From positions 1 to 24,279 of the IMG/VR virus record IMGVR_UViG_3300018028_000004: a DNA stretch of 24,279 nucleotides; one strand, 5' to 3'. Origin of the DNA: a virus. Shown one piece after another: positions 1 through 12,385 of this stretch. A program made the position numbers and the translations under genes. Position 1 is the first letter of the stretch; the number at the start of each line of letters is the position of its first letter. The notes below the pieces were generated by a model. That model was not told where the DNA came from. It was given only the letters and a program-made list of their open reading frames with translations, and made no database searches.

Positions 1-21
1 AATACATGAGATACTCTCTAC

Positions 22-132
22 ATGAAAACAATCTGCACAATCTGCGGCAAACCTCTCAGTGAAAAGGAAATTGCATTGAAAGTAACCGCACATTTTTCCT
101 GTGTGTTCAATGAAGCGTTTGGTGCAAAATGA
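22..132 (+). CDS. 36-aa CxxC small protein
   Basis: A 36-residue protein beginning MKTICTICGKPL. One CxxC pair (C5, C8) followed by GKPL looks like half of a zinc knuckle; a third Cys (C27, after HFS) may complete a site. The upstream bases carry no strong ribosome site, but the stop overlaps the next start by four bases (ATGA), typical of translational coupling in phage. The product is not recognised. A small metal-binding phage protein is the most that can be said. Confidence 0.55.
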   Translation: MKTICTICGKPLSEKEIALKVTAHFSCVFNEAFGAK

Positions 133-266
133 CCTACATCCTCCCCGACGGTCGCCGCGTCGAAATTCATGATGACGTAGCGCGCGGAGCATTGTTCGTC
201 TCATTCACACTTGAGAATGGTAAGATCGTGAACGCGGTTCGTGTTGACGAACCTAAAGAAAAATAA
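129..266 (+). CDS. 45-aa hypothetical protein
   Basis: A 45-residue protein (MTYILPDGRRVEIHDDVARG to VDEPKEK) starting inside the stop of the preceding gene (ATGA overlap). The alternating hydrophobic/polar pattern (RRVEIHDD, ALFVSFTLENGKIVNAVRV) suggests a small beta-strand protein. It carries GCGCGC at 180-185, a signature hexamer of this genome. Family unknown. It is the last gene before about 600 bases of mostly non-coding DNA. Confidence 0.55.
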   Translation: MTYILPDGRRVEIHDDVARGALFVSFTLENGKIVNAVRVDEPKEK

Positions 267-289
267 TGTAATGGATTTATTTCGAGGTA

Positions 290-322
290 GACTTCGCTGC
301 TGTATTACGAAGTAGCGAAGTC
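290..322 (+). terminator. candidate hairpin terminator after 129-266
   Basis: GACTTCGCT (290-298) is perfectly complementary to AGCGAAGTC (314-322), giving a 9-bp stem with a 15-base loop, followed by ATCTTTAC. It lies 24 bases after the stop of the upstream gene. The U tract is poor, so it may instead be a processing or regulatory hairpin. Confidence 0.35.
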
Positions 323-353
323 ATCTTTACAGAACTTCTTGGGAACCTAATCC

Positions 354-382
354 TTGACAAGCCTGAATCACGCCAGTGTCAT
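354..382 (+). promoter_or_regulatory. possible sigma70-type promoter
   Basis: TTGACA (354-359), 17 bases, then TGTCAT (377-382; four of six match TATAAT). There is no extended -10. A second perfect TTGACA at 480-485 has no acceptable -10. Weak evidence only. Confidence 0.25.
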
Positions 383-517
383 CCCTTTTCAGGGCCACGT
401 TACCGATGTTCGCCACATTACCTATGATGATTCCCGAATCGGATGTTGTTAGGCACCGTTCGGAGTCATACGTAACATGTTGACACTCATCACGGGATGC
501 TTATCGCTACTGACCAT

Positions 518-579
518 GACCGAACCTTTACTAGCCTTGGAGTTAGTAGACTCCGCTCTATGCTCTATTTCGTTCGGTT
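518..579. repeat. nested inverted repeat
   Basis: ACCGAAC (519-525) pairs with GTTCGGT (572-578), enclosing a second hairpin GGAGT/ACTCC (539-543 / 550-554) with a six-base loop. It could form a branched RNA or an operator. I do not recognise a known family. Confidence 0.3.
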
Positions 580-662
580 ACTTTCAATTTTAACTGTATG
601 ACTCACATATGCGCGCTCCGGCTCCTAGTATACACAGAAGCGCGCGCTTGTCAAGGGGTCGC

Positions 663-690
663 TAACTTGTTGATTCGACTCGACTTAGCT
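663..690. repeat. 28-bp inverted repeat, arm A
   Basis: This 28-base segment is the reverse complement of 1887-1914 with a single mismatch (27/28). It contains tandem TTCGACTCGAC and lies 58-85 bases upstream of the 748-776 promoter. The other arm lies downstream of the second promoter. It could be an operator for a shared regulator, or a recombination or rearrangement site. Confidence 0.7.
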
Positions 691-747
691 CGACTCGACC
701 CGGCTCGACCAGCCCGCGCATCTTACAAGTAATCGATACGAATTCGC

Positions 748-776
748 TTGACCCGAACAGACCAGTATGATAGGAT
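748..776 (+). promoter_or_regulatory. extended -10 promoter driving the ribozyme leader
   Basis: TTGACC (748-753), a 17-base spacer, then TAGGAT (771-776) preceded by TGA, i.e. an extended -10 (TGn). Predicted transcription start is about 782-784, two to four bases before the first paired base of the hammerhead (786). The same architecture (17-bp spacer, TGn, TAGxxT) is seen at 1822-1850. Confidence 0.65.
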
Positions 777-785
777 GTATTTATT

Positions 786-874
786 GGCAAGCACTACCCG
801 ATTCTGATGAGTCCGAAAGGACGAAACCGGCTCAGGCCGGTCAATCGGTCAAAGGGGCGAGCTTATGACTTGCC
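786..874 (+). ncRNA. type I hammerhead ribozyme
   Basis: All core elements are present in order. Stem I is CCGATT (798-803) with AATCGG (843-848), extended distally by GGCAAG (786-791) with CTTGCC (869-874) across an internal loop. CTGATGA is at 804-810. Stem II is GTCC/GGAC (811-814 / 819-822) with a GAAA tetraloop (815-818). The GAAA core is at 823-826. Stem III is CCGGC/GCCGG (827-831 / 836-840) capped by TCAG. The cleavage triplet is GTC (840-842), so self-cleavage is predicted between 842 and 843. Stems II and III are closed and stem I is open, which is type I topology. The internal loop in stem I is where tertiary contacts with loop II occur in fast-cleaving hammerheads. With the promoter just upstream, cleavage would leave the downstream mRNA with a 5'-OH end. 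Confidence 0.93.
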
Positions 875-882
875 ACGAGAGA

Positions 883-1017
883 ATGAAGCGATGCACATAC
901 CATCGAATCATTCAAGACCAACAGCGCAGGAAGTTTGACCATTTGAGGCGCGCTGTTAATTTAAAAATGGTATGGGACACAAGATCTGCCGGTCTTGTAG
1001 TGCTTCCCATAAACTAG
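883..1017 (+). CDS. 44-aa hypothetical protein after the ribozyme
   Basis: An open frame of 44 codons (MKRCTYHRIIQDQQRRKF..., ending VVLPIN) begins nine bases after the ribozyme. It is basic at the N-terminus (RIIQDQQRRKFDHLRR) and ends in a hydrophobic strand. Composition is protein-like and it contains the genome's typical GCGCGC (948-953). The ribosome site is weak (CGAGAGA). Its 3' half overlaps the inverted repeats at 957-1033, so either the frame or the RNA structure could be fortuitous. Function unknown. Confidence 0.45.
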   Translation: MKRCTYHRIIQDQQRRKFDHLRRAVNLKMVWDTRSAGLVVLPIN

Positions 1018-1033
1018 ACCGGCAGCTAAATTA
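957..1033 (+). promoter_or_regulatory. candidate pseudoknotted RNA over the ribosome site
   Basis: Three nested stems: TAATTTA/TAAATTA (957-963 / 1027-1033), TATGGGA/TCCCATA (971-977 / 1005-1011) and ACAAGA/TCTTGT (979-984 / 993-998). The terminal loop CTGCCGG (986-992) is complementary to CCGGCAG (1019-1025), giving a pseudoknot. The complement can extend to 10 bp (986-995 / 1016-1025) if the third stem opens, so two states are possible. The outer stem ends at the first base of the AGGAG ribosome site (1033-1037) of the 1046 gene. It may be a translational switch or an unassigned structured RNA. No known class is assigned. Confidence 0.45.
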
Positions 1034-1045
1034 GGAGCAGAGACA

Positions 1046-1447
1046 ATGAAAACCGAAACGTTCAAAGGCGAGATGAAGTCAGCATTCAGTCAGCAGCTTG
1101 ATAAGGCACTGAAGTTCCACGGCACGTATGAGGCGTTTGGACCAGACAAGGACAATTACACCGATGCCGACTGGGATGCAGCCATCGAAGAGATCCGCGC
1201 GAAAAACGAGTTTCCGAAGAACGAAGATATCGTGAATTACGTGAACAACAAGCGACTCGCGAACGCGCGTCAACAGAAGATGAATGAAGTGCTGAACGAA
1301 AATGGCATCGAGCGCCCGAATCTGGAAACATCCGAGAAGCTCCGCTTCGATACAATGGTCAAGGTTCTTATCGCCAGCAAAATGTCAGAGGCGGAAGCGC
1401 GCGCAACCGCTGCGACCGCGCTGAACTACAATCCGGCTTCTGTCTGA
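1046..1447 (+). CDS. 133-aa hypothetical protein
   Basis: A soluble, mostly helical, charged protein of 133 residues (MKTETFKGEMKSAFSQQLDK..., ending TALNYNPASV). A good ribosome site AGGAG (1033-1037) lies eight bases before the ATG. No catalytic motif, Cys cluster or membrane segment is visible. Codon use is richer in G+C than most neighbours (gcg, cgc, aag). It is the only sizeable gene of the transcript that begins with the hammerhead ribozyme, so it may be made early or abundantly. Family not recognised. Confidence 0.75.
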   Translation: MKTETFKGEMKSAFSQQLDKALKFHGTYEAFGPDKDNYTDADWDAAIEEIRAKNEFPKNEDIVNYVNNKRLANARQQKMNEVLNENGIERPNLETSEKLRFDTMVKVLIASKMSEAEARATAATALNYNPASV

Positions 1448-1460
1448 TTCAATTCATTAA

Positions 1461-1497
1461 GGCGCGTAGCGCCAGGGCCGGGACATCACACCGGCCC
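1461..1497 (+). terminator. tandem GC hairpins after the 1046 gene
   Basis: GGCGC/GCGCC with a three-base loop (1461-1473) is followed by GGGCCGG/CCGGCCC with a nine-base loop (1475-1497), beginning 13 bases after the stop. No U tract follows, so they may act as an mRNA 3' stabiliser or a factor-dependent pause rather than an intrinsic terminator. Confidence 0.4.
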
Positions 1498-1510
1498 ATC
1501 TCCCATCAAA

Positions 1511-1621
1511 ATGGTCGAATTATTCTTTGGTTATTGTGTCGTTATGATAATTCTCGGATGGGTAATGACTTTCGGTTTCGGAGTTGTTCTGCTCGTATTG
1601 AGAATGTTCGGATTTAAGTGA
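1511..1621 (+). CDS. 36-aa membrane peptide
   Basis: A 36-residue, almost wholly hydrophobic protein: MVELFFGYCVVMIILGWVMT, then FGFGVVLLVLRMFGFK. It reads as one long or two short membrane segments with a basic C-terminal tail. No clear ribosome site precedes it; it starts 14 bases after the 1475-1497 hairpin. Size and hydrophobicity resemble small phage membrane peptides (holin-like or superinfection-related), but nothing proves that role. Confidence 0.5.
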   Translation: MVELFFGYCVVMIILGWVMTFGFGVVLLVLRMFGFK

Positions 1622-1643
1622 AATGATTACATGTAGGACGGAT

Positions 1644-1680
1644 GGGGGAGGGTATCTCCCCCTCTCTCTTCTCTCTCACC
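1644..1680 (+). terminator. probable intrinsic terminator
   Basis: GGGGGAG (1644-1650) pairs perfectly with CTCCCCC (1656-1662) across a five-base loop. A pyrimidine tract (TCTCTCTTCTCTCTC) follows. It closes the transcript carrying the 1046 and 1511 genes. The tract mixes C and T, so termination may be partial. Confidence 0.6.
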
Positions 1681-1821
1681 GGACCTAGCCAAACCCCACC
1701 CAAATCCAAGGAAATGGATCGTAGGAAGGAAGGAAATAGTTAGTCTTTTTTAATTTTTTTTTTTTCAACTCTCTTCACTTTACATGTAAAATCTTCATTT
1801 AAGTGTCCACTTTTTAGGGCA

Positions 1822-1850
1822 TTGACATGGTTCGCCAAGTGTGGTAGAGT
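1822..1850 (+). promoter_or_regulatory. strong sigma70-type promoter, extended -10
   Basis: A perfect TTGACA (1822-1827), a 17-base spacer, then TAGAGT (1845-1850) preceded by TGG (extended -10). Predicted start is near 1857. It is the best candidate for transcribing the long plus-strand gene block beginning at 1967. Confidence 0.7.
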
Positions 1851-1886
1851 GAGTCGAGAGTGGGGGTAGGGCACCACCCTCAAGAC

Positions 1887-1914
1887 AGCTAAGTCGAGTC
1901 GAATCAACGAGTTA
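1887..1914. repeat. 28-bp inverted repeat, arm B
   Basis: Reverse complement of 663-690 with one mismatch. Here it lies about 30-57 bases inside the transcript from the 1822-1850 promoter. Its core TCGAGTCGA is itself near-palindromic, as expected for a repressor site. Confidence 0.7.
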
Positions 1915-1966
1915 CGAAGGAGCCCCGACCTAGCCGAACCAGACCTACAAGTAAGGATTACATTCA

Positions 1967-2509
1967 ATGGGTAGATATCCAGGCACACCAAAACACGTTC
2001 ATAAGTATGAATTTCGTAAGGGTAAGACTATTGGACGTGGTGCATTCTACTACGATGTAGCAGGTATTTGGATGTGCGCGGATTCGTATTGCACGCACTA
2101 TCTACCGCGCAATATCGAACGCACTATCAACGGACGTGGTTCACGATGTCATCGATGTGATAAAGAATTCTCACTCAATACTGAAATAATCGAAGAAACA
2201 CTAGACAATCTGACAGAATTAGGTTCCGATACATTAGTTGGTCAACCACTCTGCGATAGTTGCGCGAGTCGTCATATCGCAGCAGAAACACGAACGGAAT
2301 ATGAACAATTCATCAAAGGTAAACCAGTCGAAAAAGATGAAGACCTAAAACAGTGGATAGACGAGCGTTTTCATGCAGATAATCGTCTCAGGAATTTGAA
2401 ATACGGACCTGAACAAACCGAATCGAAGCCGGAATCAGAAATAATCGAATCGGTTAATGTATGGTGTGATTCTTGTCAGGTGCATCATCCTGAAGGTCAA
2501 CACATCTAA
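1967..2509 (+). CDS. 180-aa multi-zinc-ribbon protein
   Basis: 180 residues with Cys pairs spread along the chain: C37 and C42 (CADSYC), C59/C62 (CHRC), C95/C98 (CDSC) and a C-terminal WCDSCQVHH. The CHRC and CDSC pairs are spaced like one treble-clef or zinc-ribbon site; the C-terminal CxxC plus HH may form another. The middle is acidic and helical (EYEQFIKGKPVEKDEDLKQW). A TAAGGA ribosome site lies about ten bases upstream. It is the first gene after the promoter at 1822-1850. A nucleic-acid-binding or regulatory role is plausible, but the family is not recognised. Confidence 0.7.
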   Translation: MGRYPGTPKHVHKYEFRKGKTIGRGAFYYDVAGIWMCADSYCTHYLPRNIERTINGRGSRCHRCDKEFSLNTEIIEETLDNLTELGSDTLVGQPLCDSCASRHIAAETRTEYEQFIKGKPVEKDEDLKQWIDERFHADNRLRNLKYGPEQTESKPESEIIESVNVWCDSCQVHHPEGQHI

Positions 2510-2525
2510 TGAATGGAAGTGATGA

Positions 2526-2714
2526 ATGCCTACTCTCACCAGCAAAATGATTTTCATTCTATCTTCAAAAACTGATATGGTAGCATTCACACATTACGAA
2601 GACATAGCAGATTGGATAGAACATTTTTACAAACCCTGTCCAAATAGAAAACCTAACGAATTGGGTGAAGAGGGATTTACCGTTAGAGAAATTCCATTAC
2701 TAACAATCAACTAG
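2526..2714 (+). CDS. 62-aa hypothetical protein
   Basis: A 62-residue protein (MPTLTSKMIFILSSKTD..., ending EIPLLTIN). The chosen ATG has GGAAG seven bases upstream; an internal ATG (M8) would give a cleaner beta-strand start (MIFILSS). The pattern of one strand, a helix (YEDIADWIEHFY) and a final strand suggests a small alpha/beta fold. No function is recognised. It lies in the same co-directional run as the zinc-binding genes on both sides. Confidence 0.6.
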   Translation: MPTLTSKMIFILSSKTDMVAFTHYEDIADWIEHFYKPCPNRKPNELGEEGFTVREIPLLTIN

Positions 2715-2750
2715 CACACCATGATTAATCGTAGTTAATCGAGGTAAAAT

Positions 2751-3356
2751 ATGAGTTGGAAATGTCCCACCTGCGCGCTCGTCAATTCCGATCTGAATCG
2801 TGCGTGTCCATCCTGTAATACTCCAACTGTAAAGAATTTTCTCGAAGAATGCCGGCAGGTCGATCAATCCATTCAGCTTCGTTCAGACTTGTTCAACGCG
2901 CACACTCCGCCAATCATCGAACGAATCAAATTCATTCTGGCTGACGAGTCGATACCGAACGAATCGAAACAATTCAAAATAGCCGAAACGCTCCTTGACA
3001 TGTTCAGACATCAGCGCGATGTATGTTTCACAAAGCGAACCGAATCAATCGATGCCGAGAACAAACTACGCGCGATTCAATCGACGTTGAATGATTATGC
3101 GAATAGACTACACCAGACAGAACGAGACATATTAAAAATAGAGAATATCAATTACGATCCGACCGCTGCGCGGCCTGTCACGAAGCCTGCCTCAGTCAAC
3201 AAAGTCTCAAAAGCGAAATACAACCGAACCGAACTCAGCGAAGCATCAACGAAGTATGGATTACCGGCGTTAGCCATACAGATGACATGCATCGCGCGCA
3301 ACGTATCACCAGACGAAGCGGGACGGCTCATCACGGCAGCCAAACAATCTAATTGA
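2751..3356 (+). CDS. 201-aa protein with RanBP2-type zinc finger
   Basis: Residues 3-25 fit the RanBP2-type zinc finger pattern: W-x-C-x2-C-x3-N-x6-C-x2-C (W3, C5, C8, N12, C19, C22). About 30-140 is helical and rich in Q, E, R and K with likely coiled coil, and the C-terminal third is basic then helical (KAKYNRTELSEASTKYGLPA). In other proteins RanBP2 fingers bind RNA, ubiquitin or protein partners; here the ligand is unknown. The ribosome site is GAGGT. Codons contain GCGCGC at 2773-2778 and 3294-3299, as in native genes of this phage. The finger is well supported; the role is not known. Confidence 0.7.
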   Translation: MSWKCPTCALVNSDLNRACPSCNTPTVKNFLEECRQVDQSIQLRSDLFNAHTPPIIERIKFILADESIPNESKQFKIAETLLDMFRHQRDVCFTKRTESIDAENKLRAIQSTLNDYANRLHQTERDILKIENINYDPTAARPVTKPASVNKVSKAKYNRTELSEASTKYGLPALAIQMTCIARNVSPDEAGRLITAAKQSN

Positions 3357-3357
3357 T

Positions 3358-3633
3358 ATGACCAAATACAAATCAAATGAATCAAATCGAGAAATTCATT
3401 TCGAGCATCCATCATGTGAATGTTCAATCTGTCGCGCTCCGACTCGTATCCAATTCGTCTGTCATGATCGACTCGTTGCCGAAGTAATTGTTGAACATCA
3501 CATGGCCGATCAAACTCAAGCGGATTACTATCGCGCGCTTCGAAACAAGTCAAGACCAATCGGCGCGTCTGTAATGAATCGGGCCGACATATCACGGTTC
3601 TGGTCGGTTCCAGTTGGCACTAAACTAAGATAA
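3358..3633 (+). CDS. 91-aa Cys/His hypothetical protein
   Basis: 91 residues, starting one base after the stop of the preceding gene. Residues 17-35 carry H-P-S-C-E-C-S-I-C and a later C, a possible metal site (H17, C20, C22, C25, C35). HH is seen at 47-48. The C-terminus (MNRADISRFWSVPVGTKLR) is basic. It is part of a run of small metal-binding proteins. No family is recognised. Confidence 0.6.
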   Translation: MTKYKSNESNREIHFEHPSCECSICRAPTRIQFVCHDRLVAEVIVEHHMADQTQADYYRALRNKSRPIGASVMNRADISRFWSVPVGTKLR

Positions 3634-3649
3634 ATGAGCGGAGCGAATC

Positions 3650-3820
3650 ATGGAAATGAAACGAAAAGCCCTAGTAAGGAAAATCGAGCGCACTACAGAC
3701 GGAACGCTCCGAATCGAAGCAACATTCGCCGGAGGCTATATCATATTCAATTTAAGTAAAACTGAACAACCAATGATAATCGATGAAAACATCGAAATAA
3801 CAATCACTACCTCAAATTAA
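3650..3820 (+). CDS. 56-aa beta-rich small protein
   Basis: A 56-residue protein (MEMKRKALVRKIERTTDG..., ending IEITITTSN) with alternating hydrophobic residues through four or five strands (LRIEATF, YIIFNLS, MIIDENIEITIT), consistent with a small beta sandwich or barrel. A GGAG-containing ribosome site precedes the ATG. It lies immediately before the helicase gene. Function unknown. Confidence 0.6.
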   Translation: MEMKRKALVRKIERTTDGTLRIEATFAGGYIIFNLSKTEQPMIIDENIEITITTSN

Positions 3821-3830
3821 AATAACCAAT

Positions 3831-6632
3831 ATGACCCACGAAGCCGCCACGCGCATCTTACGCTCCGGAGCGCAAGTGGAAGTGACCTTTGAAGAGGAAA
3901 TAATCCGTCGGCCGAAATATGAAATAACTCGATTACAAGACAAATGTGAATACTGTGGAAAAGTTGCAAAGTCAGTCAGCGAAAAAACAATTGAATACGA
4001 TGATCCTTTCAGACCAAATCTTAAATTTATAAGATTAGATTGTGGTCATACCCTAGTAAAGAAAATACCGAAGGGAACGCCATTCATCACGATGCTCGCC
4101 GGGGGCGATAAGAACTGCAAACATGAATGGAATAAAGCTAAGTGTAATCATTGCGGAGCAATGCGCCCATACGAGTTTCAAGTAGATGGAATGAATTTTG
4201 TGGAGACAGCATTAGCCGTGAACAAAGGCGCGGCACTATTCGACGAGATGGGACTCGGTAAGCTGCTGAATGTAAACACTACAATTTTTACCCCATCCGG
4301 TCCTAGACGTATCGGTGACATTCAAATTGGAGATTTTGTTATAGGTTCTGATGGTAATCCAACACGAGTAACAGGAGTTTTCCCACAGGGTGAACAAGAT
4401 TTATATAAAATTGAATTTACAGATGGTTCAGAATGCGATGCAGGATTACCACATTTATGGCAAGTAAATACAGCATTAAGAAAATGGCAAGGATTATCGC
4501 CACGTATTCTAACTACTGAACAAATAATGAATGATTTGTTCACAAAATCAAAAAATAGTTCTGGTAAATATAATTACAAATGGTTTATTCCAATTGTTAA
4601 ATCAGTAGAATTTGATTTTAAAGAAATAACAATTCATCCTTATATTTTAGGAGTATTACTTGGAAATGGTAGTTTTGTTACTAGAAGAGTAAAATTGACA
4701 ACAGCAGATGAAGAAATTAGTTATCAAGTTAGTCATTATTTTAAGCCAACAACAAAATATAACGAATTTACTTTACAATCAGATTCTGAAATTCCAGATC
4801 AATTAGAACAATTAAAACTAATTGGATGTCGAGCGGCGACCAAATTCGTACCAGAACATTATAAATTCAATGCAATTTCGGTTAGAATTGAACTTTTACG
4901 TGGTTTAATGGATACAGATGGTTCAATTTGGAAAGGCGGTGTTGTTGAATATACAACTGTCAGTCCTAATCTTGCAGATGATGTGACATTTTTAGTTCAA
5001 TCATTAGGTGGAATTGCTAAGAGAACAATTAAAGAAGAACCAAAATATGAATATAAAGGAGAAATTTTAATTGGTCAACTTGCTTATCGATTAGTAATTA
5101 ACATTCCAATTAATCCTTTCCAACTAAAAAGAAAAGCAGATTTATGGAATGAGTATAACTCAAAAAAGAAATATGAACCTACACGTGCATTCAAATCAAT
5201 TACATACAAAAATAAAGGAGAATCGGTTTGTATTTCGGTTGATGCTCCAAACAAGCTGTATGTAATTAAAGATTTTATCGTCACACATAACACGATTCAG
5301 GCACTCGGAGTCATTAAATTCCATCCTGAACTCCATCCCGTTTTATACATCGTGAAAAGTGGAATCAAATTTCAATGGTTCAAAGCAATCATCGATTGGA
5401 TGGGCTCCGATTTCGTCGGACAGATTATAACTAAGAGCGATGATTATTTGATACCTAATCTCAAAACATACATCGTATCATATGACCTACTCGTATCGAA
5501 GACGCGCACAAACAAGAAAACAGGTAAAATAATCAGTCAAGGTTATGATATAAGTAAGTTTGATGGCAAAATTAAGACCGTCGTCCTCGATGAATGCCAA
5601 CAAATAAAGAATCCTGACAGCAGTCGAACACAACAGGTAAGAAGAATCGTAAAGAATAAAGTTGTCATAGCATTAAGCGGAACACCTTGGAAAAACCGAG
5701 GTTCCGAGTTTTTTTCAGTATTAAACATGTTAGCACCGAGTAAGTTCTATTCATACGAGCAATACGTAAATCGATGGGTCGAAAGGTATTGGCACGGTAA
5801 TACTCAGAAGATGGGAGGCATTAACAATCCTGCGCGGTTCAAGGAATACGTGAAAGACATCGTGATTCGACGAGAGCGAACCGAAGTGATGCGTGAATTG
5901 CCGCTCGTCAATCGAACGAAACTCAACATACAAATGACACCTGACGAATCGGGTGTATACGACGATGCCGTAAATGATTTCGTTGAATGGTATAATGAAC
6001 AGCGCGCGTCCATCTCCGCAATACATATCCTGGCGAAGATGTCCAAACTCCGACATTTAACCGGACTCGCCAAGATTCCGGCTACGCTTGATTACATCGA
6101 AGAATTCCTAGAAGATACCGATCGTAAGCTCGTTGTATTTTTACATCACGTAGATGTAGGTAATATGCTTTACGATTCTTGCCGTGAAAGATTTGGGAAC
6201 GAAATAGATATATTAAAATTGACTGGCGGTATGAATTCCGAGGAACGAAATAAAACTCAAATGCAATTTAATGAACCCAAACGTAGTATATTGATAGCAA
6301 GCACACTAGCAGCAGGAGAAGGATTAAATCTTCAAACGTGCGCGGATTGCATAATCCATGAGCGGCAATTTAATCCCGCGAACGAGGAACAGGCAGAAGG
6401 GAGATTTATTCGTATCGGCCAAACGGCTGATGTAGTTAATTCAACATACGCAATAGCGGTAGATAGCATCGACGAGCAATTAGATATGTTAGTCGAAGGT
6501 AAGCGCAGAAGATTCCACGCAGCCATGAATAGTAGTGAAGCTCCGAAGTGGAATGAGAATGACATTGCGCGAGACTTAGCTGACATTATAGTTAACCAAC
6601 ATAAACCGCGCTCTAAACGAAAGATTAACTAG
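3831..6632 (+). CDS. SNF2-family helicase interrupted by an intein
   Basis: A 933-residue precursor; removing the 343-residue intein (145-487) leaves a 590-residue SF2/SNF2-type ATPase. N-terminal Cys/His pairs (C39/C42, C71/H73, C96/H98, C105/C108) suggest zinc fingers. Helicase motifs follow: Walker A DEMGLGK|T split by the intein; Walker B DECQ (587-590); motif III SGTPW (616-620); the second RecA lobe with LTGGMNSEERNK; motif V AAGEGLNLQ (827-835); and motif VI QAEGRFIRIGQT (854-865). Phage SNF2 proteins act as DNA translocases in replication, repair or remodelling. Because the P-loop is interrupted, the precursor should lack ATPase activity until splicing. It stands among the recombination genes, one base before an HNH gene. 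The ribosome site is weak. Confidence 0.93.
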   Translation: MTHEAATRILRSGAQVEVTFEEEIIRRPKYEITRLQDKCEYCGKVAKSVSEKTIEYDDPFRPNLKFIRLDCGHTLVKKIPKGTPFITMLAGGDKNCKHEWNKAKCNHCGAMRPYEFQVDGMNFVETALAVNKGAALFDEMGLGKLLNVNTTIFTPSGPRRIGDIQIGDFVIGSDGNPTRVTGVFPQGEQDLYKIEFTDGSECDAGLPHLWQVNTALRKWQGLSPRILTTEQIMNDLFTKSKNSSGKYNYKWFIPIVKSVEFDFKEITIHPYILGVLLGNGSFVTRRVKLTTADEEISYQVSHYFKPTTKYNEFTLQSDSEIPDQLEQLKLIGCRAATKFVPEHYKFNAISVRIELLRGLMDTDGSIWKGGVVEYTTVSPNLADDVTFLVQSLGGIAKRTIKEEPKYEYKGEILIGQLAYRLVINIPINPFQLKRKADLWNEYNSKKKYEPTRAFKSITYKNKGESVCISVDAPNKLYVIKDFIVTHNTIQALGVIKFHPELHPVLYIVKSGIKFQWFKAIIDWMGSDFVGQIITKSDDYLIPNLKTYIVSYDLLVSKTRTNKKTGKIISQGYDISKFDGKIKTVVLDECQQIKNPDSSRTQQVRRIVKNKVVIALSGTPWKNRGSEFFSVLNMLAPSKFYSYEQYVNRWVERYWHGNTQKMGGINNPARFKEYVKDIVIRRERTEVMRELPLVNRTKLNIQMTPDESGVYDDAVNDFVEWYNEQRASISAIHILAKMSKLRHLTGLAKIPATLDYIEEFLEDTDRKLVVFLHHVDVGNMLYDSCRERFGNEIDILKLTGGMNSEERNKTQMQFNEPKRSILIASTLAAGEGLNLQTCADCIIHERQFNPANEEQAEGRFIRIGQTADVVNSTYAIAVDSIDEQLDMLVEGKRRRFHAAMNSSEAPKWNENDIARDLADIIVNQHKPRSKRKIN
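4263..5291 (+). mobile_element. class 3 intein with LAGLIDADG endonuclease
   Basis: In-frame 343-residue intein inserted between Lys and Thr of the Walker A motif GLGK|T. Residue 1 is Leu (block A LLNVNTTI), not Cys or Ser. The class 3 WCT set is present: Trp after the block B His (HLW, H208/W210), Cys in block F (C467 of CISVDAPNKLYV) and Thr in block G (T485 of IVTHN), with terminal H486-N487 and +1 Thr488. Initiation by the internal Cys, not residue 1, is therefore expected. Two LAGLIDADG motifs are seen: ILGVLLGNGS (272-281) and LLRGLMDTDGS (355-365). The first has Asn where the catalytic Asp normally lies, so the endonuclease may be weakened. The DNA is clearly more AT-rich than the flanking extein and contains no GCGCGC, consistent with later acquisition. 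Confidence 0.93.
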
Positions 6633-6633
6633 T

Positions 6634-7104
6634 ATGGAATACAATATTAACGATTTACCAACAAAAATTAGAAAGAAACTTAAGATATTGGATGAGCATT
6701 GGTTGTGGATAGGTTCCGCTGCCAATAAAAATAGGATTGATAAAAAAGGAAAATTAAGTTACAAAGGAAAACATTATCTTGCTCATAGAGTAATATTTCA
6801 TATTCTAACAGGATTTGATTTAAATAGTGAATTACAAGTCAATCATAAAACAAGTTGTCCAATTTCTTCATTGTGCTGCAATCCTGCTTGTTTATATGCT
6901 GGCACTCAATTAGATAATGTAAGAGATGCAATGGAACTTGGTACTCATCCCGGCGCAGTTAAAGCACGACAAGAAGTTTGTTCAATTTGTGGAGGTGAAT
7001 TTACATTCAGTTCAGTTACAGGAAAAAGGTCTTGCAAGGTTTGTAGGGCTAGACGAAGTAAGGAATCTGATGAAAGAGAAAAAATAAGATTAGGAATAAA
7101 ATGA
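6634..7104 (+). CDS. HNH homing endonuclease, zinc-ribbon tail
   Basis: 156 residues. The HNH core runs from WLWIGSA through AHRV (H51), VNHK (N70, H71), CCNPACL (N83) and AGTQLDNVRDAM, the pattern of phage HNH_3-type endonucleases. The usual NPxHL histidine is replaced by Cys (C86), which may alter or abolish metal binding. The C-terminus has a CSIC...CKVC ribbon (C116/C119, C134/C137) followed by basic residues, probably for DNA binding. The DNA is AT-rich and has no GCGCGC, unlike neighbouring genes, so it looks like a mobile insertion. It starts one base after the helicase stop and shares four bases with the next small gene. Confidence 0.85.
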   Translation: MEYNINDLPTKIRKKLKILDEHWLWIGSAANKNRIDKKGKLSYKGKHYLAHRVIFHILTGFDLNSELQVNHKTSCPISSLCCNPACLYAGTQLDNVRDAMELGTHPGAVKARQEVCSICGGEFTFSSVTGKRSCKVCRARRSKESDEREKIRLGIK

Positions 7105-7232
7105 CCAATCAATCATTGTTAATCATATGCCCAAAATGTGGTAATGGAGACTTGTCATTAATCGAATTAATCGAGCCTAATCATAAGAAGTATTTCTGTA
7201 TGGTATGTGCTCATTGTTGGTTGGTTCAATAG
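7101..7232 (+). CDS. 43-aa zinc-ribbon protein
   Basis: A 43-residue protein with two Cys pairs, CPKCG (C10/C13) and CMVC (C33/C36) followed by HCW, a minimal zinc ribbon. Its start overlaps the HNH stop (ATGA). Its layout closely matches the 38-aa protein at 14088-14204 that sits between the two polymerase halves (CPKCG...CLVCKHQWV), so the two are probable paralogues. The role is unknown; both neighbour genes that are mobile or split. Confidence 0.7.
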   Translation: MTNQSLLIICPKCGNGDLSLIELIEPNHKKYFCMVCAHCWLVQ

Positions 7233-7251
7233 CATCAATTAGAAGGAAACT

Positions 7252-8193
7252 GTGACCGAAATATTAATCCCTAAAAAGAATGTCATCCTCGACGCTAGTA
7301 TTCTTAGTAGTCTCATGTCGTGTCCAAGATTAACCGATCTTCGATACAATCACAACTTGACAGCGATTGGTGGTAAATCGAATTCGCTCGAATGCGGTTC
7401 GATCGTTCATAAGTTCTTAGAACAGTATTACAAGAGTCAAATCAACGGCGCGAGTCGGGCCGAATCGATTCAAAGCGCGCGAAGCACGGCGGAATTATAC
7501 ATCACCGGATGTCAACACTGTAGTGAATATGTAGGCGAGGCGAAGCCGAGTTGTGGTCATCAACCGAATGAGTTCCCAGGAGTCAAAAATACCCCACCCG
7601 AATCAGAAAAGTATTTAATAGGATGGAAATATGCGCTCGACACCTGTCATCAATACATTGAATATTACAAAAATGATCATTGGGTGTCACTCGAAGCCGA
7701 AGTAGTCAAAGGCGAAATACTCTACGAAAATGACGATCTGCGCGTGATGTGGAAAGCGAAATTCGATTGGATCGTCGATACGAATGATGACATATTACCA
7801 GTCGATCATAAAACGATGAAACAACGCCGAGATAAGATCAGTCTGAATAATCAATTCACTGGACAATGTTTATTAATGAAGACTCGAAAGGTCGTGATTA
7901 ATAAGATTGGATTTCAAACAACATTGAAACCGGAAGAGAAATTTGTGCGCGAGATAGTCAATTATTCATCTGACAGACTAATCGAGTGGCAATCCGAAAT
8001 CTTGCCATACTACGCCTATAAATTGTTAGATTACACTGAGAACAATTATTGGCCACCAAACTATACGCATTGTGAGAATATTTATGGTAAATGTCAATTC
8101 GTTCAGGTGTGTGAGGCTGATAGAGGTATGAGAGGGGAAGAATTACGATTGAATTTTTGTAAAACAAATAAATGGGATCCCCAAAATGATTGA
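7252..8193 (+). CDS. PD-(D/E)XK nuclease, Cas4/RecB-like
   Basis: 313 residues from a GTG start with ribosome site AAGGAA. Nuclease motifs in order: CGSIVHKFLEQYY (H53), KAKFDWIVD (D172), VDHKT (D185, K187) and a Q-rich helix NNQFTGQCLL (Q201, Q205). C24 with C274, C281 and C287 (HCENIYGKCQFVQVCE) matches the four-Cys iron-sulfur arrangement of Cas4/AddB-type nucleases. An extra CQHC...CGH cluster (C87, C90, C101, H103) may bind zinc. Such nucleases resect DNA ends; beside Sak4 and a single-strand-binding protein this fits phage recombination. The catalytic set appears complete. Confidence 0.88.
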   Translation: MTEILIPKKNVILDASILSSLMSCPRLTDLRYNHNLTAIGGKSNSLECGSIVHKFLEQYYKSQINGASRAESIQSARSTAELYITGCQHCSEYVGEAKPSCGHQPNEFPGVKNTPPESEKYLIGWKYALDTCHQYIEYYKNDHWVSLEAEVVKGEILYENDDLRVMWKAKFDWIVDTNDDILPVDHKTMKQRRDKISLNNQFTGQCLLMKTRKVVINKIGFQTTLKPEEKFVREIVNYSSDRLIEWQSEILPYYAYKLLDYTENNYWPPNYTHCENIYGKCQFVQVCEADRGMRGEELRLNFCKTNKWDPQND

Positions 8194-8422
8194 AATTCAT
8201 AAGAAAGTGCAATTTAAGGAAGAAATATATTGGTTACATGGTCCTTTGATAGAAGGTCATTATAATATATCTCCACTAGACCATTATTCAGATGATGGTG
8301 ATTTACTAGCAGATCCATTCCACGATTTGAGTTTTGCTATATTGTGGGATGGTAATATAATGCAATTTGGAGAAATAATAGGTAAAAAATCTGATTTAAT
8401 AGAAATAAAGGAGACAAAATGA
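8186..8422 (+). CDS. 78-aa hypothetical protein
   Basis: A 78-residue acidic, beta-rich protein (MIEIHKKVQFKEEIYWLHG..., ending DLIEIKETK) overlapping the nuclease gene by eight bases and the next start by four. Several strand-like segments (EIYWLHG, FAILWDG, NIMQFGEIIG) suggest a small barrel or OB-like fold. AT-rich. No known family is seen. Confidence 0.65.
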   Translation: MIEIHKKVQFKEEIYWLHGPLIEGHYNISPLDHYSDDGDLLADPFHDLSFAILWDGNIMQFGEIIGKKSDLIEIKETK

Positions 8423-8592
8423 CTAACACAATTATTACGATAACAATTGCCGTTGCTGATTTAAGATTAGCATTCAAAGAGTTTTGTAAACAACAATTGA
8501 TGCCAGAACATATGATTCAATCACAATGGGAAGAATGGTATGATAAACAAATTTTCCCAAGAATTCAGGATGAGGGATGGAGTAAAAAATGA
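8419..8592 (+). CDS. 57-aa hypothetical protein
   Basis: A 57-residue protein (MTNTIITITIAVADLRLAFK..., ending EGWSKK). A strand or hydrophobic start (IITITIAVADL) is followed by an amphipathic helix with many aromatic and Gln residues (QSQWEEWYDKQIF). The start is in an ATGA overlap after GGAGACAAA, and the end overlaps the next start. First of a chain of seven very small genes (8419-9378). Function unknown. Confidence 0.6.
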   Translation: MTNTIITITIAVADLRLAFKEFCKQQLMPEHMIQSQWEEWYDKQIFPRIQDEGWSKK

Positions 8593-8759
8593 GCTTAACA
8601 CCAAACGAATTAAGGAAAATATGGGACTGTATAGATTCGATCGATGCGCGCGTCAAACAGGTTAGTTATTCTGACGTATATGAAGATATTGTGGATGAAA
8701 TAAAAATCATTAAGAATTTGATTGAACGTGAGGTACCGGAATTAAAAGAGATGAAATGA
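8589..8759 (+). CDS. 56-aa helical protein, paralogue of 9208-9378
   Basis: 56 residues (MSLTPNELRKIWDCIDSIDA..., ending EREVPELKEMK), almost all predictable helix with heptad-like hydrophobics. It shares with the protein at 9208-9378 the start MSL, an IW at positions 11-12, a Y/D-rich centre, and the block I-K-x-I-K-N-x-I near the C-terminus, so the two are probably duplicated copies. ATGA overlaps at both ends indicate coupled translation. Function unknown. Confidence 0.6.
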   Translation: MSLTPNELRKIWDCIDSIDARVKQVSYSDVYEDIVDEIKIIKNLIEREVPELKEMK

Positions 8760-8929
8760 GCCTAAATATTGAGGATCAAGCAAAACGCGCACGAGAGTTA
8801 TTGGAAAAAAGTGATATTAAAGAAATTATGTCGATTCGCTGTGAAGAAGAAAATCACAATTATGAAAATTGTTGTTCAGCTATATTTCAAGTGTATCAAA
8901 AATGTAAATGGTGTGGAAAAATAAGGTGA
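8756..8929 (+). CDS. 57-aa Cys-containing protein
   Basis: 57 residues (MSLNIEDQAKRARELLEKSD..., ending CKWCGKIR). A helical N-terminus is followed by C29, H34, C39/C40 and a terminal CKWCG pair (C50, C53), a likely zinc site. The C-terminal VYQKCKWCGK resembles half of a zinc ribbon. It starts in an ATGA overlap with the previous gene. Function unknown. Confidence 0.6.
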   Translation: MSLNIEDQAKRARELLEKSDIKEIMSIRCEEENHNYENCCSAIFQVYQKCKWCGKIR

Positions 8930-8933
8930 AATC

Positions 8934-9080
8934 ATGTCATTATTAGGTAAGGAGTTTGACGAAGCAATGAAACAACTCAAAATTACACTAATCAACACCG
9001 AAGCGGTGATAATCAATTTGAATCAAACTGTGTTGAAGATGAATGAGATAGTTAATAAAATCAATTCGACATTGAAATGA
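8934..9080 (+). CDS. 48-aa coiled-coil protein
   Basis: 48 residues (MSLLGKEFDEAMKQLKITLI..., ending NKINSTLK) forming one long amphipathic helix with Leu/Ile/Val at heptad positions, probably a coiled coil. It also begins MSL, like its neighbours. It starts four bases after the previous stop and overlaps the next start. Function unknown. Confidence 0.55.
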   Translation: MSLLGKEFDEAMKQLKITLINTEAVIINLNQTVLKMNEIVNKINSTLK

Positions 9081-9208
9081 ATTCGCGAAGCGAATGGTGG
9101 CGATGGTTGCGCGCGCTGATTTGGTGTGATCATGAACTAATCGTTGATTGGCGAGAATTAAAAGTGAAATGTTTGAAATGTGGTTGGTCTAGTCGAGGTA
9201 TAAAATAA
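9077..9208 (+). CDS. 43-aa Trp-rich CxxC protein
   Basis: 43 residues (MNSRSEWWRWLRALIWCDHE..., ending WSSRGIK). Seven Trp or Cys/His pairs stand out: EWWRWLRALIW, CDH (C17, H19) and CLKCGW (C32, C35). The metal site C17/H19/C32/C35 is plausible. It overlaps both neighbours by one to four bases. GCGCGC occurs at 9109-9116. Function unknown. Confidence 0.55.
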   Translation: MNSRSEWWRWLRALIWCDHELIVDWRELKVKCLKCGWSSRGIK

Positions 9209-9378
9209 TGTCATTAAATAGAAAAGAATACGAAGAAATTTGGAATCGGTGTAAAAAAATAGAATTCATATTAGGAAAAATATGGCGTGCTAAACATTAT
9301 AAATGGGCTAACGATATTAATTGGGAAGTAAAACAAATAAAGAATAAAATTCAACAAGTGATTGGACAAATGGAATGA
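9208..9378 (+). CDS. 56-aa helical protein, paralogue of 8589-8759
   Basis: 56 residues (MSLNRKEYEEIWNRCKKIEF..., ending KIQQVIGQME), helical and basic. Similar length, start (MSL) and internal spacing (IW at 11-12, IKNKI near the C-terminus) to the protein at 8589-8759. TAATG overlap with the previous gene and ATGA with the next. Function unknown. Confidence 0.6.
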   Translation: MSLNRKEYEEIWNRCKKIEFILGKIWRAKHYKWANDINWEVKQIKNKIQQVIGQME

Positions 9379-9578
9379 CAAGTGAAACCAAACTCCTCAT
9401 TGAATACGCACGATTCTACGGCTCCCTCAAATCGCTCATCGAACACGTTGAGCATGGTCTAATCAGTAATGAGAATATGATTCAATCAGTCAAAGGATGG
9501 ATGACTCGATTTGAACGTGAACGGAATCGTATGGACCCAAATTTTACTAAGAAAATAAAAAGTGAGCAGAGCAAATGA
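9375..9578 (+). CDS. 67-aa helical hypothetical protein
   Basis: 67 residues (MTSETKLLIEYARFYGSLKS..., ending KIKSEQSK), two or three charged helices and a basic tail. It is coupled by four-base overlaps to the small gene before and to the Sak4-like gene after, which suggests a role near recombination, but no motif is recognised. Confidence 0.6.
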   Translation: MTSETKLLIEYARFYGSLKSLIEHVEHGLISNENMIQSVKGWMTRFERERNRMDPNFTKKIKSEQSK

Positions 9579-10423
9579 ATATGAATGATGTAAATTTTGA
9601 TGCAATGTATGTTCTTATGAAGGGAGATCCCGGGCTTAGAAAATCAACTCAAGCTCTATCTTTTCCCCAGCCATCTTATTGGTTCTCATGGGATCGCAAG
9701 ATGGCTGCACTCAAAATTCCCATGCGCGCTTGGAATATTGATCCTAAACAAGTTCAATATGATGATTATGACGATTGGAGTAAAGCGCGCGCTCAACTAG
9801 AAAAATTTCAAGTAAACTGTCCGTTCAAAACGTTAGTAATCGATTCAATCACATCGTGTGGTGATTCGATTATGCGCCAAACACTTAAGGCGAAATATGG
9901 CGCGACGCGCAAATCTGGTGCAGATGCAGGAAAAACAATAGGTGGAATTCAAGTCAATGAATTGGAAGATTTCAATGCTGAATCGTCGGCACTACACGAA
10001 TTAATCAGTTTGACGAAAGACATACACAAATTTCACAAAGTAAACATAGTATTAATCGCGCACGTCATATCAATCGAAAATACACCAATCGGCGGGAAAA
10101 CAACCGTATCGCGTTCAATCGTTACGGCCGCGCGTAAAATCGCGGCAAAAATTCCTGCCTATTGTGATGAAGTGTATCATTTTGATTTAGAAAAGTCATT
10201 CGACGAATCTAAAGGAGGCGAATTAAGGATATTAACAACACACACCGGCACCGACTTCGCGCGCACCACTCTACCACTTCCTGAAGTAATTAAATTCGGG
10301 ACACGACCACTCTACGATACTTGGATTCGTCCAGCTATCGATAAAATGAATAAAAAGGAAGAAAATGGGGTGGTCATCACAACAGAACCAATACCAATCA
10401 CAGCAAGAGGATTTACGTCATGA
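9575..10423 (+). CDS. Sak4-like RecA-fold ATPase (AAA_24 type)
   Basis: 282 residues. Walker A is GDPGLRKST (17-25), Walker B is TLVIDSIT (D90), and a later strand LIAHV is followed by a polar region typical of phage RecA-like AAA_24 / Sak4 single-strand annealing ATPases. In phages these pair complementary single strands together with a nuclease and a dedicated single-strand-binding protein; both partners are present here (7252-8193 and 10910-11332). The HNH gene at 10420-10881 is wedged between this gene and the binding-protein gene, with a four-base ATGA overlap. Many GCGCGC-containing codons (9724, 9785, 10259) mark it as native. Confidence 0.82.
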   Translation: MNMNDVNFDAMYVLMKGDPGLRKSTQALSFPQPSYWFSWDRKMAALKIPMRAWNIDPKQVQYDDYDDWSKARAQLEKFQVNCPFKTLVIDSITSCGDSIMRQTLKAKYGATRKSGADAGKTIGGIQVNELEDFNAESSALHELISLTKDIHKFHKVNIVLIAHVISIENTPIGGKTTVSRSIVTAARKIAAKIPAYCDEVYHFDLEKSFDESKGGELRILTTHTGTDFARTTLPLPEVIKFGTRPLYDTWIRPAIDKMNKKEENGVVITTEPIPITARGFTS

Positions 10424-10881
10424 ATATCATGGAATTATTTCCTGATAAATTCGTTGTTGATCCTACAACTGGATGTTGGCTATTTACAGGTGGATTAACT
10501 GAAAAAGGATATGGTAAAGTAAGATACAAATATCATGTAGTGTCAATACATAGATTATCAGCATATTTATCATTAGAATTAGATATAAATGATAAATCAA
10601 TCCATGCACTTCACAAAAAAGAATGTCCACATAAAAATTGTGGTAATCCTGAACATATTTATTTAGGAGATAATACAGATAATATACGTGATGCAGTAGG
10701 AAAGCATTATTCTCCCCGAAAATTTATAACACATTGCAAATATGGTCATCCTCTGAGTGGAGACAATTTGTATATTTCACCAACAGATGGTAGAAGGAGG
10801 TGTAACACATGTAGACGAAGAAACACAAAAAGACACGAAGAAACACATCCAAGTATTCGGTACAAGATGGACAAAACGTAA
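10420..10881 (+). CDS. HNH homing endonuclease, zinc-ribbon tail
   Basis: 153 residues with a canonical phage HNH_3 layout: GCWLFTGGLTEKGYG (19-33), IHRL (H44), ALHKKEC (H65, C69), NCGNPEHIYLG (C74, N76, H79) and NTDNIRDA. The C-terminal ribbon has C106, C128 and C131 and a very basic end. Unlike the HNH protein at 6634-7104 it keeps the NPxH histidine, so it should be catalytically competent. AT-rich with no GCGCGC. It overlaps the Sak4-like gene stop by four bases and sits 28 bases before the next gene: a free-standing homing endonuclease inserted into the recombination operon. Confidence 0.88.
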   Translation: MNIMELFPDKFVVDPTTGCWLFTGGLTEKGYGKVRYKYHVVSIHRLSAYLSLELDINDKSIHALHKKECPHKNCGNPEHIYLGDNTDNIRDAVGKHYSPRKFITHCKYGHPLSGDNLYISPTDGRRRCNTCRRRNTKRHEETHPSIRYKMDKT

Positions 10882-10909
10882 ACAATCAGTCAAAAAAAGG
10901 ACCAAAAAA

Positions 10910-11332
10910 ATGCCCATTATACAATTTTCGAAACGTGATTTAATGAGAGGAAAAGTGGTCTTGCCGGGTTGGTACCGAATGAAAATCGAATCAGTCGGAG
11001 AACAACCCGCCGCATCAAAAGAAGGTCGTTCACCATCAACTAATTATCCAGTAGAAGGAACTATCCTGTACAATGCCGACACTGGAGATAAAGAATTCGA
11101 AGGTGTCGCAATCGATTGGAATTTCAATAGTAAGGCAATGGGATTCGCGCGTGGTTTCCTCGAATCTCTTGGTGAAGTTCCCACTGAAGGTAAGAGATAC
11201 GAATTGGCCGCGGCCGAAGGAAAGGAATTGGACGTATTCGTTGAGAATGGTATTTGGCAGGGGCGCCAGGTGAATCGAGTGGAACATAAATATCGTGCGC
11301 CAAGACCAGTCGAAGGCTCGGGCGCGGCATAA
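10910..11332 (+). CDS. probable ssDNA-binding protein
   Basis: 140 residues (MPIIQFSKRDLMRGKVVLPG..., ending APRPVEGSGAA). The frame is open further upstream to 10757, but that part overlaps the HNH gene out of frame and is basic nonsense; the ATG at 10910 has AAGGA about eight bases upstream and starts a sensible fold. The sequence has OB-like strands (WYRMKIESVG, VEGTILYNA, EGVAIDWNF) and GKRYELAA...GKELDVFV...RQVNRVEHKY, resembling the DUF669-type proteins that accompany Sak4. An acidic C-terminal tail is not present. Role inferred from context and general shape. Confidence 0.6.
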   Translation: MPIIQFSKRDLMRGKVVLPGWYRMKIESVGEQPAASKEGRSPSTNYPVEGTILYNADTGDKEFEGVAIDWNFNSKAMGFARGFLESLGEVPTEGKRYELAAAEGKELDVFVENGIWQGRQVNRVEHKYRAPRPVEGSGAA

Positions 11333-11380
11333 CACAAATTGCTGGTCATGGCACCCGGTAAGGATTACAAATTCCCTGGT

Positions 11381-11429
11381 CTAATGTGGACTGCAATATA
11401 AGTCGTACGCGCATTTGTAGCAGCATTAG
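11381..11429 (+). ncRNA. candidate structured RNA stem
   Basis: CTAATG (11381-11386) pairs with CATTAG (11424-11429), and after a four-base bulge CTGC (11391-11394) pairs with GCAG (11420-11423): ten base pairs closing a 25-base loop. No known RNA family is recognised. Confidence 0.35.
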
Positions 11430-11485
11430 CTGGCACAGAATATGGGCGCATGGAAAGTAATCACCAGTATTGAGCGTAGCGAGAT

Positions 11486-11575
11486 GTGGGATGCCATCGA
11501 ATAAGTTCGCGCGCGGACAAATAAGGTGGTCACATCCGCTTTTGCGATGTGTGGCGACATCCCACTTTTTCTTTT
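11486..11575 (+). terminator. terminator/attenuator-like branched hairpin
   Basis: GTGGGATG (11486-11493) is perfectly complementary to CATCCCAC (11558-11565), immediately followed by TTTTTCTTTT (11566-11575). The closed region contains two smaller hairpins, GTTC/GGAC around a GCGCGC loop (about 11506-11519) and CACATC/GATGTG around TTTT (about 11531-11552). The U tract is directly followed by an ideal AAGGAGG ribosome site (11577-11583). The position, between one gene's stop and the next gene's ribosome site, suits either a terminator for the upstream operon or an attenuator for the acidic protein. Confidence 0.55.
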
Positions 11576-11588
11576 AAGGAGGAATGAT

Positions 11589-11732
11589 ATGAGAGTAGAA
11601 TCACAATCAGTTCCAGACAAAAATGATGATAAAGATGATGAAATTGAGTTCGAGGATAGTGAAGATGACGAAACCGAACATACCGAAGATGAAGAGGCTG
11701 ATGACGAAATCGATCCGAAATCAGATAAATGA
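11589..11732 (+). CDS. 47-aa highly acidic protein
   Basis: 47 residues; after MRVESQSVPDK nearly every residue is Asp or Glu (DDKDDEIEFEDSEDDETEHT and on to the C-terminus), giving a strongly negative charge and likely disorder. The start is fixed by a perfect AAGGAGG (11577-11583) five to six bases upstream; longer frames lack a ribosome site. Such polyacidic small proteins can mimic DNA or bind basic proteins (for example restriction, nucleoid or repair proteins), but no specific family is recognised. It is set apart from neighbours by structured non-coding DNA on both sides, suggesting separate regulation. Confidence 0.7.
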   Translation: MRVESQSVPDKNDDKDDEIEFEDSEDDETEHTEDEEADDEIDPKSDK

Positions 11733-11762
11733 GATTCATCAGATTGATTGGACAAATACCTA

Positions 11763-11790
11763 ATCATCTATGCTCACGTGGATAGATGAT
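11763..11790. repeat. 9-bp perfect hairpin
   Basis: ATCATCTAT (11763-11771) and ATAGATGAT (11782-11790) flank a ten-base loop containing CACGTG. It is not followed by a U tract, so it is not an intrinsic terminator on the plus strand. It could be an operator or an RNA element after the acidic-protein gene. Confidence 0.4.
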
Positions 11791-11836
11791 ACATTAACAG
11801 GCCATAGATGGGGCAGGTTCAATTAGTTTGGTGATA

Positions 11837-11886
11837 GGACACGCACTCAACTTAGCTCTACGAGCTGTATAACAGAGCGCGTGTCC
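11837..11886 (+). ncRNA. candidate two-stem RNA element
   Basis: GGACACGC (11837-11844) pairs perfectly with GCGTGTCC (11879-11886). Inside, AGCTC (11854-11858) and GAGCT (11862-11866) form a five-pair stem with a TAC loop, separated by nine- and twelve-base single strands. A short pyrimidine run (CTTTCCCTTC) follows. The symmetric layout suggests a functional RNA or a weak terminator. No family recognised. Confidence 0.4.
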
Positions 11887-11907
11887 GCTTTCCCTTCGAT
11901 AAATTAT

Positions 11908-12072
11908 ATGATAAATTATCAATTAATGGACGAGATTTTAAAACAGCTAGAAGATATCAAGTGTCAAGTGAACAATGCAGAAGATGCGTATGGTGGAATT
12001 GTGAAAGATGAATGTTGGGTACAATTATTCGCTAAACTTCAAAAACTAATCAAATTGGATAGTGGGAGATGA
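11908..12072 (+). CDS. 54-aa helical hypothetical protein
   Basis: An open frame whose plausible starts are ATG at 11908 (MINYQLMDEILKQ) or at 11926 (MDEILKQLEDIKCQ). A GTG further upstream lies inside the 11879-11886 stem and is unlikely. Neither ATG has a clear ribosome site. The product is a charged amphipathic helical protein (LEDIKCQVNNAEDAY ... LFAKLQKLIKLDSGR). It ends one base before the next start. Function unknown. Confidence 0.5.
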   Translation: MINYQLMDEILKQLEDIKCQVNNAEDAYGGIVKDECWVQLFAKLQKLIKLDSGR

Positions 12073-12073
12073 G

Positions 12074-12385
12074 ATGGTCGAATTCTTTCGTAAGTATTTT
12101 GAAACTAAAGAACTAGAAAAAGAAGCACTTGAACATCTTCGGCCGGAGAAGAACGATGAAGATGTTCGGGTTGAAGGAAAAATCATCAAAGTGTCCGAAA
12201 AAGGATACGCATTTATTATATCAAAAGATATTCCATTCACTCGAATTTTTATGCATTGGACGGCTTTAATGAATGATACAATTCACTTTACTGAATTACG
12301 TAAAGGAATGATAGTCGAATTTACACCTCAGGAAACAGAAAAACAGGGATTTCGAGCGATTCGCGCTAAGGTGTTGGATAGATAA
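12074..12385 (+). CDS. cold-shock-domain protein, 103 aa
   Basis: 103 residues. A charged helical N-terminus (1-30) is followed by a cold-shock/OB domain: VEGKIIKVSEKGYAFI (33-48, RNP1-like KGYAFI), IFMHWTAL (58-65, RNP2-like), then LRKGMIVEFTPQE and a final FRAIRAKV strand. Cold-shock domains bind single-stranded nucleic acid. The start ATG is chosen because GGGAG lies five bases upstream; a GTG twelve bases earlier would overlap the previous gene. The stop overlaps the DNA polymerase start (TAATG), suggesting co-expression with it. A second such protein is encoded at 17401-17652. Confidence 0.75.
   Translation: MVEFFRKYFETKELEKEALEHLRPEKNDEDVRVEGKIIKVSEKGYAFIISKDIPFTRIFMHWTALMNDTIHFTELRKGMIVEFTPQETEKQGFRAIRAKVLDR

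Follow-up and report, generated by a model that had tools for sequence, protein, structure and literature searches.

In this work we have analysed a 24,279-base IMG/VR virus record (the window, by which we mean the whole stretch at its full length), and positions 798-848 of its plus strand can be identified from their sequence as a genuine type I hammerhead ribozyme, predicted to cleave. What is new is a further phage hammerhead of a ribozyme class already known, in an uncommon position directly behind a promoter match. We consider it reasonably probable that this ribozyme processes a leader and in this way defines the 5' end of an early mRNA. The features that bear on this reading are as follows.

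723-732, no strand: palindrome TTACAAGTAA ahead of the promoter, putatively an operator
748-776, plus: sigma70-type promoter TTGACC-N17-TAGGAT with a TG-extended -10 (N17 ending in TGA); predicted start ~783 (782-785)
783-842, plus: predicted 5' fragment to be cut off, ~60 nt, carrying the 5'-triphosphate (from promoter and cleavage site)
786-791, plus: GGCAAG, 5' strand of a possible distal stem I; partner 869-874, rival partner of the latter 857-862
798-848, plus: type I hammerhead ribozyme (core, stems, covariance model, shuffles); predicted cut C842/A843
798-803/843-848, plus: stem I, 6 pairs
804-810, plus: core CTGATGA
811-814/819-822, plus: stem II, 4 pairs, GAAA loop
823-825, plus: core GAA
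826-831/836-841, plus: stem III, 6 pairs
842, plus: C842, the base before the predicted cleavage 842/843
851-857, plus: Shine-Dalgarno-like AAAGGGG (from the sequence)
856-874, plus: local hairpin GGCGAGC ... GACUUGCC with the start-codon AUG in its loop or next to it; predicted for uncleaved and cleaved RNA alike
865-1017, plus: 50-codon ORF, likely first gene after the ribozyme (AAAGGGG and spacing)
1046-1447, plus: gene of a 133-aa phage protein, the second in the unit (preceded by AGGAG; weak positional counterpart in the relative L151)

The hammerhead and the virus that carries it

Written in segments, 798-848 reads CCGATT-CTGATGA-GTCC-GAAA-GGAC-GAA-ACCGGC-TCAG-GCCGGT-C-AATCGG. The consensus core CUGANGA ... 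GAAA ... UH is present at 804-810, 823-826 and 841-842, and the three helices stand around it with stem I open, all 16 of their 16 pairs (6+4+6) being Watson-Crick. For a covariance model, R1, we scanned IMG/VR with core patterns and used 19 type I hammerheads, all from other phages; this model, which holds no window sequence, scored the site at 47.6 bits (E 2.8e-13). The seeds had been picked for complementary stems, so that their pair counts are no independent evidence. If at least 4, 4 and 4 pairs are required of the stems, the real window has one motif and 300 dinucleotide shuffles of it have none. A search of Rfam at the gathering score returned zero matches; RF02275 (Hammerhead_HH9) reached 24.9 bits (E 3.6e-4), under its cut-off of 52, and the RAGATH-1 hammerhead (RF03152) 18.4 bits, under its cut-off of 56.3. 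An earlier note on this DNA had claimed all core residues, three stems and a cut at 842/843, and had proposed a covariance search. Core, stems, R1 and shuffles bear out the residues and helices, core and stems together predict the cut where it had been placed, and the search succeeds with the phage-built model, while the Rfam models respond only below their cut-offs. Hammerheads cleave after H17 and yield a 2',3'-cyclic phosphate and a 5'-OH, and the mRNA with a 5'-OH end that had also been claimed is thus the product predicted by established chemistry.

The contig G001 is identical to window positions 1-13709 (13.7 kb) and continues 20.8 kb leftward (negative positions below), so that 45.1 kb can be read. 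R1 has no second match in either contig (45 kb of this virus), and with this one match in 45 kb a tandem hammerhead pair bounding an RNA unit, by which a retrozyme or RNA circle would be recognized, is absent. The phage context that had been claimed is confirmed: the virus encodes a terminase, with distant relatives in Pelagibacter, Roseobacter, HMO-2011 and other phages, and also a uracil-DNA-glycosylase/polymerase A protein, an SNF2 helicase and an endolysin. Its control region is divergent, with structural genes running leftward and replication genes rightward, and the hammerhead heads the rightward set. The SNF2 helicase gene (3831-6632) is interrupted by an insert that resembles an intein and contains a LAGLIDADG domain, and relatives align only on either side of this insert. 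Polymerase A is split (12385-15034): the glycosylase-polymerase ORF stops at 14091, and another part of the polymerase begins at 14195. On the minus strand, about 350 nt without an ORF (280-622) lie behind a strong leftward promoter at 654-627 (TTGACA-16-TATACT); this segment folds better than its shuffles (z -2.4), has no match in Rfam and is possibly a non-coding RNA. A 28-nt inverted repeat, 96% complementary, joins 663-690 and 1887-1914, and its core AATCAACRASTTA is also found twice in L151 (5238, 5452).

Promoter, leader and relatives

The promoter at 748-776 matches the consensus at 9 of 12 positions and ranks 16 among ~37,000 scored sites in 45 kb; a start at ~783 is predicted because this is the usual 7-base distance from the -10. 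A strict pattern, TTGAC with a TG-extended -10, has four plus-strand sites and zero minus-strand sites in the 45 kb, as against a mean of 1.3 sites in shuffles. They lie at -13, 748 and 1822, with a spacer of 17 each, and at 935, with a spacer of 16 and within ORF 865-1017. The promoters at -13, 748 and 1822 are all in the divergent control region, and each is preceded by a TTACAWGTAA palindrome (at -33, 723 and 1780, respectively). The palindrome, which is likely an operator, occurs with at most one mismatch 15 times in the window, against 4.5 expected. An extended -10 promoter beside the ribozyme had been claimed earlier, and it holds up as one of three alike. Further copies of the palindrome, at 1627 and 1945 of the window and at -336 and -634 in the left flank, cluster in the control region as well. 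For the promoter at -13 the predicted start lies near the ATG of ORF 22-132, and this points to an mRNA without a leader.

The ATG at 865 lies 16 nt past stem I and 22 nt past the predicted cut. The 50-codon ORF that it opens was left out of the earlier note, and its start lies within the distal stem I proposed there; we found no homologues of it, annotated phages included, and the ribosome-binding site and the spacing from the ribozyme make it a likely gene. For the 133-aa protein and the leader DNA, no homologues were found in annotated phages. The sequence CTTGCC at 869-874 has two possible partners, GGCAAG at 786-791 and GGCGAG at 857-862, and when the stems of the hammerhead are enforced, the predicted fold has the local hairpin in preference to the distal stem I. 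The distal extension of stem I therefore stands as a pairing that is possible, with the hairpin preferred over it. With the core enforced, accessibility of the start region is predicted to be nearly the same before and after cleavage, the Shine-Dalgarno stretch scored being 853-859, two bases off AAAGGGG at 851-857. We had considered that cleavage might expose a buried ribosome-binding site, and this found no support: with the hairpin preferred and the surroundings of the start codon much the same in uncut and cut RNA, unmasking is not predicted. Free folding of 783-900 gives a predicted optimum with a misfolded core. In a search for a tertiary contact of stem I with loop II (GAAA), an internal loop and the possible distal stem I were seen, and no contact was recognized.

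The locus is known from one virus, represented by the window and G001 with their identical 13.7 kb, and compensatory changes at it can therefore not be seen. R1 has no match in the relatives G002-G007, which is weak evidence since most of these contigs stop near or short of the region, and none in L151. The latter, a distant but syntenic contig of 13 kb found via a 201-aa protein, keeps the left-arm protein (38% identity) and has promoters TTGACA-N17-TGn at 4037 and 5395, in places that correspond to those of the window; behind 4037 the 133-aa protein has a weak counterpart (31% over 62 residues, E 0.023). A comparison with related phages, also proposed earlier, has thus yielded a matching promoter, but in none of these relatives a hammerhead. 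Since the hammerhead is absent from L151 at the matching promoter, it is an optional part there, and the sequences indicate that the ribozyme is dispensable in phages of this kind, gain and loss being indistinguishable. The corresponding region of L151 has a different palindrome, TTCCGGAA, in six copies.

Hammerheads ahead of other phage genes

Is a position just before a gene peculiar to this virus? Our sample, among the matches listed, comprises 198 non-redundant hammerheads, 124 of type I and 74 of type III; because genes were called crudely, the search pattern is biased toward particular stem II sequences and the counts cover the matches listed, all numbers here are sample figures. An ATG (counted if its ORF had at least 50 codons) falls within -12 to 45 nt of the 3' end of 92 of the 117 type I hammerheads that were usable and of 59 of the 71 of type III, together 151 of 188 among the matches listed, in sense orientation and at ~120 phage loci, whereas random positions on the same strand give about 25%. 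Within the same listed matches the median distance from ribozyme to ATG is 20 nt for type I (10-90%: 12.5-35.5) and 21.5 nt for type III, and from cut to ATG 26 nt for type I (10-90%: 19-41.5); the window spacings of 16 nt and, from the cut, 22 nt are within the type I range. Gaps between same-direction genes hold 100 sense and 5 antisense hammerheads among the matches listed, against a background of 1291 own-direction and 365 opposite for all gene pairs at the same loci. Another 39 listed matches are within ORFs of the crude gene calls; for 30 of these the ORF is on the opposite strand and probably spurious. Most of the surveyed type I sites are intercistronic, a co-directional gene ending at most 100 nt upstream in 72 of 108 listed matches and at most 30 nt upstream in 66. 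In the loci L001-L145, of which L052, L041, L042, L061 and L130 are examples, there are often several hammerheads in a genome and one for each gene, such as 7 in ~5 kb of L052.

The window hammerhead resembles the type I members in these five loci and in L036 and L084 in core, stem sizes, sense orientation and a place ~20 nt before an ATG. It differs in that those of IMG/VR are mostly intercistronic and many occur several per genome, whereas the window has one hammerhead, which follows 500 nt of intergenic DNA and has a stem III rich in GC. A general association of phage hammerheads with promoters was tried and rejected, upstream scores being at background (median percentile 0.51 for type I and 0.67 for type III). 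The upstream promoter score of the window site is among the best four of 190 in the matches listed. At least two others, L036 and L084 of a large-phage subfamily, also have a promoter-like site, whose +1 would fall at stem I, and the window position is therefore uncommon and not unique. One type I subfamily, CTGTCT..AGACAG (L034:43, L084(-):2598, L105:579, L107:11665), lies in or near phage tRNA arrays in L084, L105 and L107. This hammerhead is followed by ~100-170 nt of partly conserved RNA, which has no match in Rfam and whose closing helix covaries (ATGGT/ACCAT or GTGGT/ACCAC); in L036, L090 and L137 it precedes a protein gene.

In the haloviruses HF1/HF2 the HHphage hammerhead lies 13 nt upstream of the helicase gene start, as reported by Perreault et al. 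(2011, PMC3088659). It is likewise close before a phage start codon in the early region, but the virus is haloarchaeal, the hammerhead a variant and the gene a helicase, and the parts of that paper used here do not describe a promoter-abutting position. The earlier note had called a promoter-abutting leader unusual; the abutting promoter is indeed uncommon, but the leader position itself is common, as the 151 of 188 and HF1/HF2 illustrate. The same paper describes prophage hammerheads of A. tumefaciens and A. caulinodans that cleave in vitro, the A. tumefaciens set in E. coli too (PMC3088659). These also lie beside phage genes and are thought to process transcripts, but several of them flank genes in long transcripts, whereas the window has one, at a predicted transcript start. 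Beyond Perreault et al. we found no systematic survey of hammerheads ahead of phage genes in the open literature, though one may exist.

What the ribozyme may do

Could the ribozyme serve mainly to split upstream transcripts from the mRNA of the 50-codon ORF? Cleavage of long phage transcripts was proposed by Perreault et al. (PMC3088659), the upstream gene ends at 72 of 108 surveyed type I sites (matches listed) accord with such a use, and the promoter at -13 and the small plus-strand ORFs 22-132 and 129-266 do lie upstream. We nevertheless hold it to be unlikely, since ~500 nt extend from ORF 129-266 to the predicted start at 783 with the promoter at 748 in between, which makes a cut unnecessary for separation. 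It would be more surprising still if the pairing choice of 869-874, set by cleavage, a ligand or a protein, controlled translation of the 50-codon ORF. The sequence does allow both pairings, the extended stem I, which would place the start-codon region in a long helix, and the hairpin; the free fold differs from the core-enforced one, and 778-797 is 80% complementary to 997-1016; with the core enforced, however, the hairpin dominates before and after the cut and start accessibility is nearly constant, and relatives that might show covariation are absent. Least probable in our view is an inactive or passing hammerhead acquired by recombination and with no present role. Its absence from relatives, including L151 with the matching promoter, would fit such a history, but the core is intact, all 16 stem pairs are Watson-Crick and the start-codon spacing is in the usual range.

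If, as we prefer to think, the ribozyme defines the 5' end of an early mRNA, RNA polymerase would start at ~783 from the host-type promoter at 748-776, and the ribozyme would fold in the nascent RNA and cut at 842/843 co-transcriptionally. Cleavage would leave the 50-codon ORF and the 133-aa gene on an mRNA that begins with a 5'-OH and the 22-nt leader AAUCGGUCAAAGGGGCGAGCUU-AUG. The most likely use would be one defined 5' end regardless of the promoter, be it 748 or read-through from -13, and such an end may alter mRNA decay and translation in the manner of ribozyme insulators in engineered constructs. The effect of the 5'-OH on this mRNA would depend on the host. A 5'-OH end should let an mRNA in E. 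coli evade RppH and the RNase E activity that a 5'-monophosphate stimulates. RNase J1 of Bacillus subtilis, on the other hand, degrades the 5'-OH product left by the glmS ribozyme (PMC11780869).

The window element is a natural counterpart to the ribozyme insulators of synthetic biology. Those of the RiboJ type were engineered from a plant satellite RNA ribozyme. They separate promoter effects from 5'-UTR effects and have promoter, ribozyme, ribosome-binding site and gene in the same order as the window (PMC12857756); they are synthetic, however, and an evolutionary link to the window ribozyme is not implied. With one ribozyme, one promoter and one predicted cut, and a relative that has a matching promoter without the ribozyme, this locus offers a natural test case for the purpose of phage hammerheads. 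Our survey suggests that setting a 5' end just ahead of start codons is a common role of theirs. Perhaps, and we put this forward only tentatively, phages broadly use hammerheads as makers of 5' ends, and the present virus would then be a limiting case, in which the ribozyme takes up the first bases to be transcribed, and a whole early mRNA population would thereby carry a 5'-OH that alters its decay in the host.
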